Of a stretch of DNA of 64,000 nucleotides, positions 10,836-48,073 are shown piece by piece. The number at the start of each line of letters is the position of its first letter. Position 1 is the first letter of the stretch. The DNA is from Halostella pelagica (GTDB lineage Archaea > Halobacteriota > Halobacteria > Halobacteriales > Natronoarchaeaceae). Below the pieces are notes generated by a model. The model was given only the letters and a program-made list of their open reading frames with translations. It was not told the origin of the DNA and made no database searches. The DNA lies in contig CP040678.1 of the NCBI GenBank assembly GCA_005954745.1, positions 2,852,001 to 2,916,000 of the forward strand. Reading direction: 5' to 3'. The translations under genes and the position numbers were made by a program.

Positions 10836-12230
10836 TTAGAACGGTCCCATACCGCCCATGCCGCCGCCACCGCCGCCGCCCTGGTTCTCCATCTTCTTCA
10901 TCATGCGCTGCATATCCATATCTCCCTGACCCATGCCCTGGAACTGCTTGATGGTGCGTTCCATCATCTTGTGCTGCTGGAGCAGTTCGCGCACCTTCTC
11001 TTCAGGCTGGCCGCTCCCGCGGGCGATGCGTTCCGTCCGGCTCTGGCCGATCTTGCGGGGGTTCTCCAGTTCGTCCTCGGACATCGAGTCCATGATGACC
11101 TCGAAACTACGCATGCGCTCCTGGGTGACGTCCATCGCGTCGTCCGGTAGCTGGTCTTTGATCCCGCCGCCCATGCCGGGGATCATGTCCATGACCTGAT
11201 CGAGCGGGCCCATGCGGTTCATCGCGTCCATCTGTTTTTTCATATCGCGGAGGGTGAACTGCCCCTGAAGCATGTCCTCGGGGTCCCACTCCTCGTCTTC
11301 CTCCTGGGTCTCCTGCATCGCCCGCTCGACGCGTTCGGTCAGCTGTTTCAGGTCGCCCATCCCCAGCAGGCGGGAGATGAAGCCGCTCGGTTCGAACCGC
11401 TCGACGTCTTTGACCTCCTCGCCGGTGCCGAGGAAGGCGATGGAGGAGCCGGTCTCGTTGACCGCAGTCAACGCACCGCCACCTTTCGCCGTCCCGTCGA
11501 GTTTGGTGATGACGACGCCGTCGATGCCGATCGATTCCTCGAACTGCTGGGCCTGGTCTTTCGCTCCCTGACCGATGGCGGCGTCTAACACGAGCAGGGA
11601 GCGGTCGGGCGCGGCGACGTCTTCGATCTGCTCGATCTCGTCGATGAGGTCGTCTTCGAGCGCGTGGCGACCGGCGGTGTCGACGATACGAACGTCGGCC
11701 TCTTCGGTCGCTTCGATACCGTTGCGGGCGATGTCGACCGGGTCGTCGTTGTCGGGGTTGCCGTAGAAGTCGACCTCGGCGCGTTCGGTCATCTGTTTCG
11801 CCTGGTCGTACGCTCCGGGCCGGAACGTGTCAGTCTGGATGACGGCGGGTTTCAGCCCCTTCTTCGAGAACCACCACGCCATCTTGGCGGCGGTGGTCGT
11901 CTTCCCCGACCCCTGGAGACCGGCGAGCATGATGGTCTGTTCTTCCAGCGGGAGCTCCGTGCTCTCGCCGACGAGATCCACCATCTCCTCGTAGACGATG
12001 CTGAGGACGTGCTCTCGGGCAGTCGTGCCTGCTGGCGGTTCCTCGTCCAGCGAGCGCTCCTTGATGCTGTCCGAGAGGTCCATCACGAGGGAAACGTCGA
12101 CGTCGGCCTGCAGAAGCGAGCGCTGGATCTCCTTGACGACCGCTTCGACGTCTTCCTCGCTGATGCGGGATTTCCCGCGGAGTTTGTCTAACGTACCCCG
12201 CAGCGAACTCCCGAGATCGTCGAGTACCAT
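10836..12230 (-). CDS. srp54: Signal recognition particle 54 kDa protein, SRP54/Ffh
   Basis: A 464-residue GTPase that, with 7S RNA and SRP19, targets ribosomes making membrane proteins to FtsY. The N domain is [20 protein letters not shown]. The G domain has P-loop [13 protein letters not shown], the insertion-box [23 protein letters not shown] and [13 protein letters not shown]. The M domain holds the signal-peptide-binding methionines ([19 protein letters not shown]) and ends in a Gly/Met tail. A GTG six bases upstream is possible, but ATG at 12230 matches the family N-terminus. The partner gene ftsY lies 4.7 kb upstream on the same strand, separated by an unrelated segment. Confidence 0.97.
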
Positions 12231-12374
12231 TTGCACGCTGGTAGGCGGCGGCGGGGTTAAAGCCTTGCCCGTCCGGTCCGCGTCTCCGCCGTCGCGACGC
12301 GTCGTCTACCGAGAACGGGAAAGCGAACAGCAGGGGGAGAAACGAACGACGGCAAACAGGGGGAGACGCAACTC

Positions 12375-12453
12375 ATACTATCGGCTGTAACTTCGTAAAG
12401 ATAATCGGTCCCCGAGGGTCCGATATTCTTCAAGGGATTACAGCCGACAGTAT
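12375..12453. repeat. 79-bp palindromic element, copy 1
   Basis: The two 16-bp ends form terminal inverted repeats matching at 15 of 16 positions: ATACTATCGGCTGTAA at the left and the complement of ATACTGTCGGCTGTAA at the right. An inner imperfect palindrome (ATCGGTCCCC g AGGGTCCGAT) sits at the centre, so nearly the whole element can fold into one hairpin. A second copy of identical length and the same orientation lies at 16643-16721. Its last base is the first base of the complement of the response-regulator stop codon. It resembles a MITE or a short non-autonomous repeat; no transposase is present here. Confidence 0.8.
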
Positions 12454-13013
12454 CAGGTCGTGCGACCTATCGCCTGAAACTCCTCGTCGACCTCGTCGAA
12501 GTCGGGGACGGAGTCTTCGAGCAATGACTCCAATCGCTGAGCCGTCGACTGAAGCTCCCCGTAGGTGGAACTGTTCGACAGTTCGTGTCTGGATTTCTCG
12601 GCTTCTAGCACGGCCAGTTTCGCACGGGCGACGGAATACTTCCGGAGCCTGTCATCGCGCCCCTGGACGGCGATCTGGTAGTCGATTGCGGCCGTCAGGT
12701 CGTCGTGCTGGACTGGCTTGCAGAGATAGTCGTCGAACGCCATATCGATGATGTCGAAGTCGGGTTCGACGGCCGTTATCATGATGACGCTAAACGGGGG
12801 ATCATCCGCGAACTCGTCGAGCAGGCGGTCGCCGGATATCCCTGGCATCCGTCGGTCGAGCAGGACCACGTCGACCGAATCATCGAGTTCGTCCACCGCC
12901 GCTTGCGCGTCGTAGGCGGTCCGAACCTCGTACTCTTGCCGAAGCCACAGCACGTACATATCCGCGAGTTTGTCCTCGTCGTCGACGACGAGGACGGTCG
13001 GCTCGTCCGTCAT
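12453..13013 (-). CDS. HalX-type response regulator
   Basis: A 186-residue two-component receiver protein. Residues 1-115 form the receiver: acidic pocket VDDED at 10-14, phosphoacceptor Asp53 (VVLLDRRMPG), Thr80 (MITA) and Lys99 (YLCKPV). Residues ~125-180 are the haloarchaeal HalX helix domain (ARAKLAVLEAEKSRHELSNS), which is not a DNA-binding fold known to me, so the output is probably protein-protein. An ATG four codons upstream (13025) is possible; MTDEPTVLVVDDE is the likelier start. No kinase gene is adjacent. It lies inside the segment bracketed by the 79-bp repeats, 102 nt downstream of the FrhB-like gene. Confidence 0.93.
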   Translation of the reverse strand: MTDEPTVLVVDDEDKLADMYVLWLRQEYEVRTAYDAQAAVDELDDSVDVVLLDRRMPGISGDRLLDEFADDPPFSVIMITAVEPDFDIIDMAFDDYLCKPVQHDDLTAAIDYQIAVQGRDDRLRKYSVARAKLAVLEAEKSRHELSNSSTYGELQSTAQRLESLLEDSVPDFDEVDEEFQAIGRTT

Positions 13014-13115
13014 TCGGTCGCGCACCCCATGTAGTTCTCATTGAGATTGAACCGTACTTATCAAAAGTCTAACGGAAACCCGCTGGGACCCGGTCTGAAA
13101 CGGGATATCAGTGCC

Positions 13116-14795
13116 TCAGTGGCCGGCCTCGTGGGGGTTCAGCTTTGTCCCGTAGTTCTCGGCGTGGTCGGTATAGTCGATGAACCGCGGTGCGTCAGGA
13201 TCGAAGGGACGGTCCAGCGATTCGAACGCCTTCTTCTTGTCCCAGGACTGGAGTCCACCGACGGCGCTGCGATCCTCCAGGTCGTGGTAGTCGAGGTCGT
13301 GCTCCGCGAGTTCCCACGCGACCATCCCCTGTTCCGTCCGAACGATGACGCTGGAGTACTCGTCTCCGGACCCGACGGAGCCGACAGTCAGGTCGGCGGC
13401 GTAGCCCGTGAAGTCGGCGCACTCGTCACAGCCTTTCAGCGCGGCGTCGTGGAACTCCTCGATATCCTCGACAAGGAGGGGTTCGCCGTCGTTGCCGTAG
13501 ACGCGCATCTCGCCGTCGAGGACGTCGAGTTTGCCGATTTCCTTGGGCGAGATGTCGCGTTTCTCCTCCAACTGCTCGCCGATGAGGCGGTGGTAGTTGA
13601 AGTTTTTCGTACACATCAGCGCGACCGTGTAGTCGACGGCGCGGACGCCCGCGTCCTGTGACTGATAGTCCCAGTCGAAATCTTGCAGGGCGCGGATGCC
13701 TTCGATCTCGCAGGGGGTGCCGACCATCGCGAGGCTGAGGTCTTCGGGATCTTTGTCCGGAAGCTTGTGCTCCCACTGGTCGAGGCCGAGGTTGCCAAGC
13801 GCCAGCGTCTGGTTGTAGAAGCTCCCGGCGTTTTCGACCAGGTCCTCGTGGCTCGTCGCGAGGAACGACTCCGCCTTCCACGGTTCGTCGTCGCTCTCGG
13901 TGGCAATGAGCGCGCCGTCTATCTCGCCCGCCTCAAGCAGGTGCGAGAGGACGCTGGTGACGACGCCGCCGTCCTGCGCACCCTCTCGCCAGTCGTCTTC
14001 CACCTTCGCGGAGAACTCAGTGATGGGGTCGCCCGCACCCGACACGTTGTCGTCGCCGCCGGTAATCTTCCACTGGCGCTCGTAGCGCAGGCCGCCGCGG
14101 GGACAGAAGTCCCAGCAGAGCGAACAGCCGGTACACATCTTCACGAGTTCCGGCAGGTCGTCGTCGCCGATACCGATGGAGTCCGAGGGGCAGGCCGCGA
14201 CGCACGTGCCGCACTGGATGCAACGGCCGTCGTTGATGACCGCCTCGTCCAGTTCCATGAACCACGTCTTGTCGTCGGGCGTCTCGATGTCGTTCATCTC
14301 GTCGCGGATCTCGTAGCCGGGCGTGTCCAGTTCGACGCCCTCGGGGACCTGAACGCGCTCGTCGGGTCGGCCGTTCTCCACGTTCTGGCTTCGGCCTTCT
14401 GCGGGCGGGGTGAACTCGATGTCCGTGAGGTTGCCCTCGCTGTCGACGTTTGCCGGGGTTGCGCCGCCGTCGGAGTAAATCTCCGACGAGCCCGTGTTCG
14501 CTTCGCTCATACCGACCCCGTCTGCCGCCACCTCGTCGCCGCCGCTTTCGCATCCGCACGCATCGTCGGAACACTCGCCGCTGTCCGCGCCAGCCTCGCC
14601 GACTGGCCCGCTCTCGGCCTCGTCGCCCGGACCGACCTGATCGCCGGGGATCGTGCGGTGCTCGGCGTCGGGCCGGTGGATGCGTACGCCGTCGGCCGGC
14701 GGGACCGACTCGCTCTCGTCGTCTCCCGTGTCCGGGACGCCCGGAAGGCGTTCGTCCGGCGGCCGGTTCTCGTCCGAGCCGCCCCGGTCAGTCAT
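13116..14795 (-). CDS. FrhB/FpoF-type F420-dependent flavoprotein with 2x[4Fe-4S] domain
   Basis: A 559-residue electron-transfer protein. After a disordered acidic extension (~1-180) holding a small Cys cluster (GECSDDACGCESGGDEV) comes a bacterial-type ferredoxin domain from about residue 190 with two four-Cys motifs (CIQCGTCVAACP and CTGCSLCWDFCP). This is followed by FrhB_FdhB N- and C-domains, recognised by VGTPCEIEGIRALQ, ALMCTKNFNYHRL and CDECADFTGYAADLTVGSVG. FrhB proteins bind FAD and oxidise or reduce coenzyme F420. The order ferredoxin then FrhB is that of FpoF/FqoF and of the N-terminal half of methanogen Fsr. The start at 14795 overlaps the upstream reductase stop by 8 nt, so the two are translationally coupled and probably form one enzyme. 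Confidence 0.9.
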   Translation of the reverse strand: MTDRGGSDENRPPDERLPGVPDTGDDESESVPPADGVRIHRPDAEHRTIPGDQVGPGDEAESGPVGEAGADSGECSDDACGCESGGDEVAADGVGMSEANTGSSEIYSDGGATPANVDSEGNLTDIEFTPPAEGRSQNVENGRPDERVQVPEGVELDTPGYEIRDEMNDIETPDDKTWFMELDEAVINDGRCIQCGTCVAACPSDSIGIGDDDLPELVKMCTGCSLCWDFCPRGGLRYERQWKITGGDDNVSGAGDPITEFSAKVEDDWREGAQDGGVVTSVLSHLLEAGEIDGALIATESDDEPWKAESFLATSHEDLVENAGSFYNQTLALGNLGLDQWEHKLPDKDPEDLSLAMVGTPCEIEGIRALQDFDWDYQSQDAGVRAVDYTVALMCTKNFNYHRLIGEQLEEKRDISPKEIGKLDVLDGEMRVYGNDGEPLLVEDIEEFHDAALKGCDECADFTGYAADLTVGSVGSGDEYSSVIVRTEQGMVAWELAEHDLDYHDLEDRSAVGGLQSWDKKKAFESLDRPFDPDAPRFIDYTDHAENYGTKLNPHEAGH

Positions 14796-16491
14796 CCGCA
14801 GCCACCCCCTTCGCAACGGGCGCGTCCGCCCGCTGCATGACCTGTCGCAGGTGGTCGTTGTCGACGCGACGACACCACTGGTAGAAGCGTTCGTCGCCCG
14901 TCTGCTCCTCAGCGTACGCATCGAACAGGCTTTCCAGCGCCGGTATCACCGCGTCCGCGGGCACTGCGTTTTCGACCCAGTCAAGGAACTCGTTGTCCGA
15001 GCCGAGACTCCCGCCGAGGCCGAAGTCCATCCCTTCGACCATCTCGTCCGCGTCGCCGTCCGTATCCAACTGCACCGTCTCGCCGCGGAAGCCGATGTCC
15101 GCGATCTGGGGCTGCGCGCACGACGCCGAGCAGCCGCTCATATGCATCCGGACCACGTCGAGATTGTCCGGCGTGTCGATGCGGTCGTCGAGTTCGCGCG
15201 CCCACCGCTTGACGCGGTTTTTCGTCTCGATGATGCCGTAGTTGCAGAACTCGCTGCCCGTACAGCCGACCGCGCCGCGGGCGAACGGGCCGGGGTCGGG
15301 CTGGTACGCCTCCGCGAACGGTTCCGCCAGTAGGTCGTCGACGTTCTCCTCGGGGACGTGGGTGATGAGGAAGTTCTGGTCGGTCGCGAGACGGACCGAG
15401 GCGTCGTCCGTGCCGTACTCCCTGGCGGCGCGGGCCGCCTCGGCGAACTCGTCGCCGCCCATCCGTCCCGCGACGACGTTAAAGCCGACGTACTTCAGCC
15501 CGTCTTGCTTCTGGTCGTGGACGCCGACGTGGTCGCCGAGGTAGCCCTCGGTGAGGTCGACGCCCTGCGACGGAAGTTCGACCGTACAGCGGTCCCGGAC
15601 CGCTTCCTCGAACGTCTCCGTTCCCATCTGCTCGACGAGGTAGCGCATCCGGCAGACGCCGCGGTTGTTCCGGTCGCCGAGTTCCTTGAACGTCTGGGCC
15701 ACCGCCCGCGTGAACTCGACGGCGTGTTCCGGCGGGACGAACACGTCCATCGTCGTCGCCATCCGCGGGCCGTCCGAGAGGCCGCCGCCGACCTTGACGT
15801 GGAATCCGTACTGGTCCGTGCCGTTGATCACCTTGCGGGCCGGCGTCAGCCCAACGTCGTTGATCTGCGACTGGCTACAGTCTTGCGAACAGCCAGTGAT
15901 GGTCATCTTGAACTTCCGCGGGAGGTTGGCGTACTCGCGGTTCTCCGTGAAGAAGTCCGAGACGGCGTCGATGACGGGTTGGGCGTCGAAACACTCGTGT
16001 CCGTCCAGCCCGGCCGCGGGACAGCCGAGTACGTTCCGCGCGGAGTCGCCGCAGCCCTGGATGGTGGTCAGTCCCACCTCGTCGTACTTCGCCCAGACCT
16101 CCGGCACGTCCGCGACCTCTATCCAGTGTTTCTGTATGTCCTGTCGCGTCGTGATGTCGAGGTACGCGTCGCCCCAGAGTTCGTTCTGGGTCTCGCCGCC
16201 GTGTTCCTCGGGCGCAGTAGCGTACTCCTCAGCCACCGCGCCGATAACTTCGGCCTGGTCCGGCGTCAGGTAGCCGCCGGGCACCTTCGTCCGCATCATG
16301 AAGTAGCCGCGCTGGCGACCGTGGCTGTACATGCCGGCCCACTTCAGGCGTTCCCACTCGCCGTCGCCGGCGCGCTCCTCTATCTCGTCGAACGACAGGT
16401 CCTCCTCTGCGTACTCCTTGACATCCTCGATAACGTCCAGCGGATGCTTGTTTTGCTTGTACTGTTCGACGGCGTTCACGGCGACCACCAT
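14788..16491 (-). CDS. Siroheme [4Fe-4S] nitrite/sulfite reductase
   Basis: A 567-residue assimilatory six-electron reductase of the NirA/SirA type with two homologous halves. The C-terminal half carries the cluster and siroheme ligands as C-X5-C (GCTGSEFCNYG, about residue 408) and C-X3-C (GCSASCAQPQIADIGF, about residue 452). The N-terminal half has the ferredoxin-type signatures GLTTIQGCGDSARNVLGCP and ANLPRKFKMTITGCSQDCSQ. Whether nitrite or sulfite is the substrate cannot be decided from sequence. Starting at ATG 16491 gives a family-like N-terminus (VEQYKQNKHPLDVIEDV); an ATG at 16545 would add 18 residues. It is the first gene of a two-gene unit with the FrhB-like protein. Confidence 0.92.
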   Translation of the reverse strand: MVVAVNAVEQYKQNKHPLDVIEDVKEYAEEDLSFDEIEERAGDGEWERLKWAGMYSHGRQRGYFMMRTKVPGGYLTPDQAEVIGAVAEEYATAPEEHGGETQNELWGDAYLDITTRQDIQKHWIEVADVPEVWAKYDEVGLTTIQGCGDSARNVLGCPAAGLDGHECFDAQPVIDAVSDFFTENREYANLPRKFKMTITGCSQDCSQSQINDVGLTPARKVINGTDQYGFHVKVGGGLSDGPRMATTMDVFVPPEHAVEFTRAVAQTFKELGDRNNRGVCRMRYLVEQMGTETFEEAVRDRCTVELPSQGVDLTEGYLGDHVGVHDQKQDGLKYVGFNVVAGRMGGDEFAEAARAAREYGTDDASVRLATDQNFLITHVPEENVDDLLAEPFAEAYQPDPGPFARGAVGCTGSEFCNYGIIETKNRVKRWARELDDRIDTPDNLDVVRMHMSGCSASCAQPQIADIGFRGETVQLDTDGDADEMVEGMDFGLGGSLGSDNEFLDWVENAVPADAVIPALESLFDAYAEEQTGDERFYQWCRRVDNDHLRQVMQRADAPVAKGVAADD

Positions 16492-16642
16492 CGGTGTTGA
16501 ACATCTGTGCTGTCTGTGGTCATCTATCGTGCCACTAGTACTCACCCGACACGAAGTGTTCGCGCAAAGTGGTCAATGGTGACGGGTCTGCCCCGTAGCG
16601 GAGAGTAATGCCTCTTTCTGGCGGGCATCTCCGCCAAAACTG

Positions 16643-16721
16643 ATACTGTCAGCTGTCACTTCGGAACGATACTCGGACCCTCAGGGTCCGAGGTTCCGCA
16701 AGGGATTACAGCCGACAGGAG
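16643..16721. repeat. 79-bp palindromic element, copy 2
   Basis: This element has the same length and orientation as copy 1 at 12375-12453. It shares the left end ATACTGTCAGCTGT (one or two changes), the internal CTTCG, the centre and the right end CAAGGGATTACAGCCGACAG. The inner palindrome is perfect: CTCGGACCCT, one base, AGGGTCCGAG. The outermost three bases at the right end have decayed (GAG instead of TAT). Together the two copies bracket the response regulator, FrhB-like and reductase genes. Confidence 0.8.
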
Positions 16722-16858
16722 GAGGAACGGGCCAGCTGTCCGGAGACAACGACGGTAAGCGGCCGACGCGGTGTCACAAATATTGCCGCTACCTCGTGGC
16801 GTTTCTGGCCGTACCTGGTCGGAACAGTCCGCCAGAACCGGGCGTCGAACCGCCGAGT

Positions 16859-16880
16859 GGGGAGTATCGAGTGTCTCCCC
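16859..16880 (-). terminator. Possible terminator hairpin after ftsY
   Basis: GGGGAG (16859-16864) pairs perfectly with CTCCCC (16875-16880) over a 10-nt loop, starting 23 nt beyond the ftsY stop codon. A short T-rich run on the transcript strand (GTTTTCC) precedes rather than follows the stem, so this is a weak call. It could equally be an RNA-stabilising 3' hairpin. Confidence 0.3.
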
Positions 16881-16902
16881 AGGGAAAACGAGTGCGGCTT
16901 CC

Positions 16903-18171
16903 CTACTCCTCGTCGCCGAGCAGACGGTCGACCATCTCCTCGGGGTCGAACCGTTCGAGGTCGTCGTACCCCTGCCCAACGCCGAGAAAGAGGATCGGCT
17001 TCCCGGTCACGTGAGAGATGGAGATAGCCGCGCCGCCCTGCGAGTCGGCGTCCGCCTTCGTCAGGATGGAGCCGTCTACCTCGGCGGCGTCGTCGAACTG
17101 CTTGGCGCGCTGGACCGCGTCCTGGCCCGCAACGGCCTCGTCGACGAACAGCGTCATGTCGGGACCGACGACGCGACCGATCTTCTCCAGTTGGTCCATC
17201 AGACCCTCGTTCGTGTGTAGGCGACCGGCGGTGTCGCCAAGTACCACATCTACGTCGTTCGCCTCGGCGTACTCCACCGCGTCGTAGATGACCGCGGCGG
17301 GGTCGCCGCCCTGCTCGTGGGCGATGATCTTCTTGTTCAGGTTATCCGCGTGTTCCTGGATCTGCTCGTTCGCGCCGGCGCGGTAGGTGTCGCCGTTCGC
17401 CAGCACCGAGGAGTACCCCCGCCGTTCGAGATACTGCGAGAGTTTCGCGATGCTGGTCGTCTTCCCGACGCCGTTGACGCCGGTGAAGATGATGACGAGC
17501 GGTTTCTCGGCCTCGGCCACGTGCTCGTCGAAGTCGAACTGCCCGACGTTGATGACATCGAGCAGGGCTTCGCCGAGCGCGTCCTCGACGACAGCGCCCG
17601 TACTCTCGGTGAACCGACGGGTCTCGCCGACGAGTTCGTCTCTGATGTTGTCGAGTATCTCCTCGGCGACGCTCATCTCGACGTCGCTTTCCAGGAGCGC
17701 CATCTTCAGCTCCCACAGCGGGTCTTCGAGGTCCTCCTCCTCGATGACGAACTTCCCCGTTGCCAGGGATTTGGCCTTGCGGGCGAACCCGGTTCCGCCG
17801 CTATCGTCGGTCTCGTCGGACGCCGCGTCGTCCTCGTCGGACGCATCGGCGTCAGCGTCCGGATCGGCGTCTTCGGAGACCGGAGCGTCCGGGCTCTCGC
17901 GAGGCACGGCCTCTGCGGCCGTCGCCGTCTCGGGGGATTCGGCCTCCGCGGCCGCGGCTTCACCCTCTTCGGCGGCCGCCGCTGATTCGGGGTCGGCGGT
18001 TACGTCGTCGGGTTCGGCGGTAGCGGCGTCGTCGGCTTCCGTCTCGGCGTCCGCCGCTTCCGTCTCGTCTCCCGCCTCCTCCTCATCCTCGGCCGCCTCG
18101 GCCTTCTCCTCGGCGACTTCCTCTGCGTCCTTGCGGAAGTTGCCGAGCTTGTCTTTCAGGCTATCGAACAT
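16903..18171 (-). CDS. ftsY: SRP receptor GTPase FtsY
   Basis: A 422-residue membrane-associated GTPase that receives the SRP-ribosome complex. Residues ~1-135 are an extremely acidic Ala/Glu/Asp low-complexity region typical of haloarchaeal FtsY, starting MFDSLKDKLGNFRKDAEEV. The N domain follows (FARKAKSLATGKFVIEEEDL). The G domain has P-loop FTGVNGVGKTTSIAKL, the ANGDTYRAGANEQ insertion box, DTAGRLHTNEGLM, TKADADSQGGAAI and the closing FLGVGQGYDDLERFDPEEMV. It lies nine bases after pfdA in the rpl39e-rpl31e-eif6-rpl18a-pfdA-ftsY series. Confidence 0.97.
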   Translation of the reverse strand: MFDSLKDKLGNFRKDAEEVAEEKAEAAEDEEEAGDETEAADAETEADDAATAEPDDVTADPESAAAAEEGEAAAAEAESPETATAAEAVPRESPDAPVSEDADPDADADASDEDDAASDETDDSGGTGFARKAKSLATGKFVIEEEDLEDPLWELKMALLESDVEMSVAEEILDNIRDELVGETRRFTESTGAVVEDALGEALLDVINVGQFDFDEHVAEAEKPLVIIFTGVNGVGKTTSIAKLSQYLERRGYSSVLANGDTYRAGANEQIQEHADNLNKKIIAHEQGGDPAAVIYDAVEYAEANDVDVVLGDTAGRLHTNEGLMDQLEKIGRVVGPDMTLFVDEAVAGQDAVQRAKQFDDAAEVDGSILTKADADSQGGAAISISHVTGKPILFLGVGQGYDDLERFDPEEMVDRLLGDEE

Positions 18172-47467: not shown

Positions 47468-48073
47468 TCAACGGGCCGCGTCGGCGGTGGCGTGAGAGTT
47501 CGCGTCGGTCGACGCGACGCGGTCTCCGTCGGCCGGTTCCGCGCGGCCCTCACCGGCCTCGGTCGGTCTTTCGTCGTTCGGTCGGTCGTCGTCCGCACCG
47601 GTGTCGTTCGGTCGGTCGTCGACCGTACCGCCGTTCGTCCTGGCGTCGTAAAGGAGGAGGATCAGGATGCCGAGGAGAGTTAGCTCGATCACTTTCGTCG
47701 CGAACAGCGTTATCTCTTCAGTGACGTGCTCGTACAGACCGACGAGAGGGCTGCCGCCGTGGTGGCCGGCCTCCCAGGCGTACTGACCTTCGTGACCGCC
47801 GAGGAACAGCCATCCGACGAGGTAGCCGAGCATGAGCAAGATACCGGCGGCGTACACCACGTCGCGGCGAAGGCCGCGATACCAGAGCGTGACCCCGAGA
47901 AAGATGGCCGCTCCGGAGAGGACGAACAGGGCCTGTCGCGGGTCGGCCAACGGTCTCGACGCCATCAGGTAGTACGTCAGTCGCTCCACGCCGAGCATCA
48001 GGTGGATGCCTGCGGTGGTCGCGGCCAGCAACACCCCCGCAGACTCCAGCGTCTCACGTGTCCGCTGCTCCAT
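47468..48073 (-). CDS. Four-helix membrane protein with disordered C-terminus
   Basis: A 201-residue membrane protein. Four helices are visible (GVLLAATTAGIHLMLGVERL, ALFVLSGAAIFLGVTLWYRG, VVYAAGILLMLGYLVGWLFL, VIELTLLGILILLLYDA). His residues sit in helix 1 and in the GGHEGQYAWEAGHHGG loop, which could bind metal or haem. The last ~55 residues are low complexity (DDRPNDTGADDDRPND). The start used is MEQRTRET. Two 14-bp direct repeats lie just upstream. The family is not recognised with confidence. Confidence 0.75.
   Translation of the reverse strand: MEQRTRETLESAGVLLAATTAGIHLMLGVERLTYYLMASRPLADPRQALFVLSGAAIFLGVTLWYRGLRRDVVYAAGILLMLGYLVGWLFLGGHEGQYAWEAGHHGGSPLVGLYEHVTEEITLFATKVIELTLLGILILLLYDARTNGGTVDDRPNDTGADDDRPNDERPTEAGEGRAEPADGDRVASTDANSHATADAAR

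Follow-up and report, generated by a model that had tools for sequence, protein, structure and literature searches.

Palindromic MITE-like elements on either side of a redox operon between ftsY and srp54 in Halostella pelagica

Two palindromic elements and the genes they bracket

Three genes lie between srp54 and ftsY in Halostella pelagica, bracketed by two short palindromic repeats. Was the operon carried in by the repeats, or did each repeat insert on its own beside genes that were already present? The window that we have analyzed is a stretch of 64,000 nt (assembly GCA_005954745.1, contig CP040678.1, positions 2,852,001-2,916,000, forward strand), and coordinates are given within it. An earlier note on this DNA had placed two repeats of exactly 79 bp, equal in orientation, at 12375-12453 and 16643-16721. 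The places and orientation are confirmed, but the element proper is 77 bp long at each site (Table 1). We conclude that each very probably inserted on its own, as a member of a haloarchaeal family of fully palindromic, non-autonomous MITE-like elements, and that the operon is resident.

The two elements have 81% identity across 88 aligned bases. Both hairpins fold far better than shuffled sequences, with z = −6.2 for element 1 and −5.6 for element 2. Within the window the 17-base core GGGATTACAGCCGACAG is found only at elements 1 and 2, where 0.06 occurrences are expected even if three mismatches are allowed. The 3-bp flanks of element 1 are identical. Those of element 2 differ, and judging from the sequence GGA is probably a mutated copy of the target-site duplication (TSD), leaving a single intact copy. 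Element 2 lies upstream of the reductase leader, which is conserved in the relative G001. Elsewhere in the window there is a 30-bp tandem repeat at 47573-47630, with two copies and 92% matches.

The gene identities given in the earlier note are borne out by Pfam. The genes for the FrhB-type protein and the NirA-like reductase (13116-16491, minus strand) overlap by 8 bp, and the pair is kept beside ftsY in several lineages. PDB relatives of the two proteins include the N-terminal and C-terminal parts of Fsr (7np8), a coenzyme F420-dependent sulfite reductase made of a single chain. From these sequence relationships it is possible that in haloarchaea the pair forms an F420-dependent nitrite or sulfite reductase encoded by two genes.

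Table 1. Features of the srp54-ftsY interval, in window coordinates
Feature	Position	Strand	Basis
srp54, flank; SRP54 GTPase	10836..12230	-	Pfam
Left TSD copy of element 1, TCA	12373..12375	.	Sequence; pairs with right TCA
Element 1, 77-bp palindromic MITE-like, subfamily A, ends TACTATCGGCTGT / ACAGCCGACAGTA	12376..12452	+	Sequence, alignment, fold, genome census
Right TSD copy of element 1, TCA = TGA stop codon of the HalX gene	12453..12455	-	Sequence, gene context
Response regulator with HalX domain; resident in G001-G004, not cargo	12453..13013	-	Pfam, relatives
FrhB/FpoF-type F420 flavoprotein, FrhB_FdhB N + C and 4Fe-4S domains; resident	13116..14795	-	Pfam, relatives
Siroheme nitrite/sulfite reductase, NirA-like, NIR_SIR + NIR_SIR_ferr; resident	14788..16491	-	Pfam, relatives
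Left flank of element 2, TGA (target duplication)	16641..16643	.	Sequence
Element 2, 77-bp palindromic MITE-like, subfamily A, between ftsY and the reductase gene	16644..16720	+	Sequence, alignment, fold, relatives
Right flank of element 2, GGA, probably a decayed TSD	16721..16723	.	Sequence
ftsY, flank; FtsY GTPase	16903..18171	-	Pfam, relatives

The ftsY-srp54 junction in related genomes

The earlier note proposed that a 4.3-kb cargo had been captured by composite mobilization or by recombination between the copies. As a composite transposon, the two copies would be the ends of a larger element carrying the HalX, FrhB and reductase genes into the ftsY-srp54 interval. The bracketing of three genes by two copies of the same orientation fits such an event, as do relatives in which ftsY and srp54 have nothing between them (for example G017 and G029) or HalX alone (G002 and G004). 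But the wider comparison contradicts it. In four out of four relatives of the same genus (G001-G004) the ftsY-srp54 interval contains the HalX gene. In G001 the reductase, FrhB and HalX genes are all present there, with 90%, 86% and 68% identity respectively, and G003 keeps an FrhB remnant at the junction. The reductase adjoins ftsY also in G008, which is of another genus in the same family, and in G014 and G030, of another family. In the sequences read we found no element at the HalX-srp54 joint of G001-G004, nor upstream of the G001 reductase. The earlier note had set residence of the genes in relatives free of the repeats against its own proposal, and in the key respect that is what is seen, for HalX in all four relatives and for all three genes in G001. 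Since HalX is present throughout the genus sample, all three genes occur in one relative free of the elements and the reductase stands beside ftsY elsewhere, the operon is not cargo. G002 and G004 seem to have lost the reductase and FrhB genes.

It was also anticipated that ftsY and srp54 would be found as neighbors without the cargo. This is true of other genomes, but it reflects several lineage-specific changes at a variable junction. Among the loci compared (L077-L091) the two genes may be adjacent, separated by HalX alone or separated by 3-17 kb of other genes.

The elements themselves give the same answer. The outer 3-bp flanks of the pair are different, TCA and GGA, whereas element 1 has its own matching TCA/TCA and was therefore inserted alone. 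The HalX stop codon is at the homologous position in the relatives, so the gene was not truncated by element 1. Nor is the spacing unusual; 4.3 pairs of copies 4.3 kb apart are expected by chance in the Halostella pelagica genome, and one is seen. A composite transposon is thus rejected as extremely improbable, given that neither a shared outer TSD nor absence of the cargo from element-free relatives holds. Dispersed repeats on both sides of an operon are not proof that it was carried in. The relatives lack both elements, and we found no exact empty site for either in them because their intergenic DNA is too diverged.

A dispersed family with a TNA target

Comparison of the 79 bases with the whole genome (G000; 3.94 Mb in four contigs) gave 42 matches; being palindromic, the element matches many of the loci on each strand. 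Alignment of the copies with their flanks places the boundary at TACTGTCGGCTGT ... ACAGCCGACAGTA, with the same T-N-A on both sides. The terminal inverted repeat (TIR) is TACTGTCGGCTGT, 13-14 bp in length. The TNA plus end, TNATACTGTCGGCTGT, has 49 exact matches in the genome, against none for the reversed control. Using shorter ends, with pattern and BLAST searches plus fetched stretches, the genome-wide search that the earlier note proposed as a check finds 59 elements rather than two, 58 of them on the 3.2-Mb contig. Internal sequence divides them into five subfamilies (34 A, 10 D, 9 C, 3 E and 3 B). Nearly all are 74-81 bp long, with 77-79 bp in 41 of the 59; three are shorter, and the three of 108 bp make up subfamily B, with few lengths between this and the 77-79-bp class. 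The elements have no coding capacity, being too short for a transposase and having no gene predicted inside.

The family extends well beyond this species. Of 392 genomes of the order, 67 contain the exact 16-mer of TNA plus end; they belong to several families and 26 genera including Halovenus, Halomicrobium, Haloarcula and Haloplanus, and the control gave about two matches in total. Both length classes, 77-79 bp and ~107 bp, are found repeatedly in different families. A class of ~105-109 bp that is less palindromic, with the same ends and a TNA TSD, was seen in several families (L132, L133, L149 and L150), and the long class is also found in loci L038:4314-4421, L040:4054-4161 and L041:4338-4445. 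The family is an old one, found widely among haloarchaea, and provides clean markers of insertion. As far as the open literature shows it has not been described previously; we found there neither a description of the family nor its end sequence in a relevant context, subscription journals and ISfinder lying outside the search.

Insertion duplicates the target. The 3-bp flanks are identical in 41 of the 59 elements; when right flanks were exchanged among copies, 10,000 trials gave a mean of 13.7 and a highest count of 25. Of the 42 elements with TNA on both sides, 40 have matching flanks. A precise empty site is provided by Halomicrobium. The occupied site on a plasmid of Halomicrobium sp. LC1Hm reads ...GTCATCAGCGGAGACTTCTGA-(78-bp element)-TGAGCGTACTCGGG, i.e. 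...CTTCTGA(78 bp)TGAGCGTACTC, while in H. mukohataei DSM 12286 the site is ...GTCATCATCGGGGATCACTGAGCGTACTCAGG (...ATCACTGAGCGTACTC). The difference is exactly one element and one duplicated TGA. In both records the TGA is an annotated stop codon (LC1Hm CDS 11720-12940; HMUK_RS16855). A TA duplication of the IS630/Tc1 type is rejected, because the N outside the TA is identical on both sides and the empty site has a single TGA. The earlier description of the copies as MITE-like thus holds; they are short (<500 bp), non-coding, multicopy and dispersed, with TIRs, a TSD of fixed length and a precise empty site.

Two further observations concern individual sites. In Haloarcula hispanica ATCC 33960 and Haloarcula sp. 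CBA1115 very different elements (L277:1949-2026 and L278:4615-4690) are found at the same stop codon of an M48-protease gene, which suggests that this site has been struck more than once. At stop-codon insertions with unequal TSD copies the changed copy is the non-stop one, for example TCG against TCA, which is partly true by definition; the count of decay at the unconstrained copy comes from loci L006, L032, L033, L035, L060, L062 and L075.

With TNA as the target, stop codons are often hit. In Halostella pelagica the TSD falls exactly at the stop codon of a neighboring gene in 21 of 59 elements and none lies inside a gene; in other genomes the corresponding figures are 20 and 0 of 42. Genes in unannotated genomes were called with a codon-usage caller made for this analysis. 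In the NCBI annotation CDSs end exactly at no fewer than nine elements (at least 9) in four species. Taken together, the target was the stop codon of a neighbor in 41 of 89 usable insertions. We compared this with alternative non-coding TNA sites of the same intergenic region, using CTNAG weights learned from non-stop insertions. The expectation is 23 from TNA alone and 31.5 with CTNAG weighting, leaving an excess with P = 4e-4; a joint model gives odds of 3.4. The residue is significant in the other genomes (P = 0.0015) but not in Halostella pelagica alone (P = 0.058). Special targeting of stop codons is therefore rejected as the main cause, since most of the apparent enrichment vanishes once the CTNAG preference is modeled. 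Most of the effect is the target rule together with absence from coding DNA, and a modest residue is left. That absence is probably due to purging by selection.

Palindrome, mobilization and origin

Is the palindrome a property of the DNA or of a transcript? With an outer stem of 14 bp and a central stem of 9 bp taken together, 92.8% of cells are paired across 35 sequences from many genera, every slid control being far lower. The outer stem (helix 1) has 96% of its cells paired, and seven of the nine pairs of the central stem have changed on both sides across genera. This covariation, the strong fold of both elements and the fact that nearly half of the copies begin directly after a stop codon might suggest an RNA hairpin conserved at gene ends as a regulator or terminator. 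Yet an RNA hairpin would leave the TSDs and the empty site unaccounted for, and the elements are absent from the orthologous sites in relatives. On the gene-sense strand G-T is not favored over A-C mispairs (52 vs 62), and the elements show no bias in the way they face with respect to the gene at whose stop they lie (13 vs 17). We found no credible Rfam match in 11500-17800. An RNA regulator as the primary nature of the elements is rejected as very unlikely, although single copies may have been co-opted secondarily as regulatory or terminator hairpins. The lack of both a G-T preference and an orientation bias points to constraint or correction at the level of DNA rather than of a transcript. 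We infer that the palindrome is kept at the DNA level, either as a transposition substrate or by hairpin-templated correction.

The MITE-like elements most likely insert by a mechanism of the following kind. A putative transposase, probably of DDE type and acting in trans by cut-and-paste, would recognize the ~13-bp inverted ends. It would make a 3-base staggered cut at T-N-A, preferably CTNAG, and insert the 77-81-bp hairpin, with gap repair then duplicating the TNA. Because TGA and TAA both fit TNA, insertion at a stop codon would recreate the stop and leave the protein intact. Insertions at stop codons or between genes would persist, and those within genes would presumably be lost. At the present locus element 1 landed exactly on the HalX stop and element 2 between ftsY and the reductase gene, the genes between them being already there. 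How to integrate without harm is a problem that mobile DNA faces in general, and a 3-bp TGA or TAA duplication that rebuilds the stop codon it strikes is one solution.

What enzyme might move the family? None of the six PF01609 (DDE_Tnp_1) matches in Halostella pelagica has ends of the TACTGTCGG type, and no parent insertion sequence (IS) was found among the 30 best PF01609 loci in 18 element-rich genomes. A scan of ~2 Mb of loci revealed no IS-sized pairs of ends (250-5000 bp apart with equal TNA flanks), and each wide-spaced pair close to the family ends proved to be the ends of separate mini-elements. Inspection of ORFs near unpaired ends in Halostella pelagica gave no obvious transposase gene. 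No viral carrier was found in the phage collection; where viral contigs match the end pattern the ends are not paired, and the matches are apparently due to chance. The IS1031 group of IS5 typically makes a 3-bp TNA duplication, as the present family does. IS1031-group ends begin with GAG, unlike the TAC of our elements, and in the loci tested there was no IS5-like transposase with the family ends. The family seems to be without an obvious transposase, and what moves it is a testable question.

The origin of the family can be read in two ways. The first is a narrower version of the MITE-like explanation and concerns origin only. The elements would be ordinary MITEs derived by internal deletion from a haloarchaeal IS (an IS5/IS1031-type element, for example) that duplicates TNA and is missing from the sampled genomes. 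This we judge close to an even prospect, though just short of it. The short TIRs, the 3-bp TNA TSD, the absence of coding capacity and the many copies all agree with it, and some MITEs of Haloquadratum likewise persist in a genome in which no functional copy of the matching transposase was found (PMC3119063). An IS deletion derivative would not be expected to show a palindrome of almost the whole length whose central stem covaries; the recurrence of both length classes across families also counts against this origin. The second reading is that the hairpins are an old, independently evolving lineage of obligate palindromes across Halobacteria, and not recent deletion derivatives of an IS. The hairpin and the ~77- and ~107-bp classes would then have been selected as a DNA substrate of a transposase acting in trans, and the CTNAG target would make stop codons near-cost-free landing sites that are regenerated on insertion. 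We put this forward tentatively, as possible but clearly short of an even chance.

Comparison with known elements sets the family apart. Like MITEs in general, the elements are short, non-coding and dispersed, with TIRs and a TSD, and mostly intergenic. They differ in having no related IS in the PF01609 loci and ~2 Mb searched, in being a near-whole palindrome with a covarying core and in a TNA target that makes insertion at stop codons common. SMR-A and SMR-B of Haloquadratum walsbyi are similar in length (80-110 bp), with prominent TIRs unrelated to known transposons, many copies and a haloarchaeal host, but SMRs make no TSD and target other mobile elements (PMC3119063), whereas the present family makes a TNA TSD and sits between genes. 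The IS605-derived PATEs of Haloquadratum are also palindromic, non-coding and haloarchaeal, but have subterminal palindromes and neither TIR nor TSD (PMC3119063). With both TIRs and a TSD, our family is neither SMR nor PATE. Bacterial RUP, Correia/NEMIS and ERIC are likewise intergenic palindromic MITE-like repeats, of ~100-200 bp; their termini and duplications are of the 5'-TA-3' kind (PMC2229807), and by that description they are distinct from the family found here.
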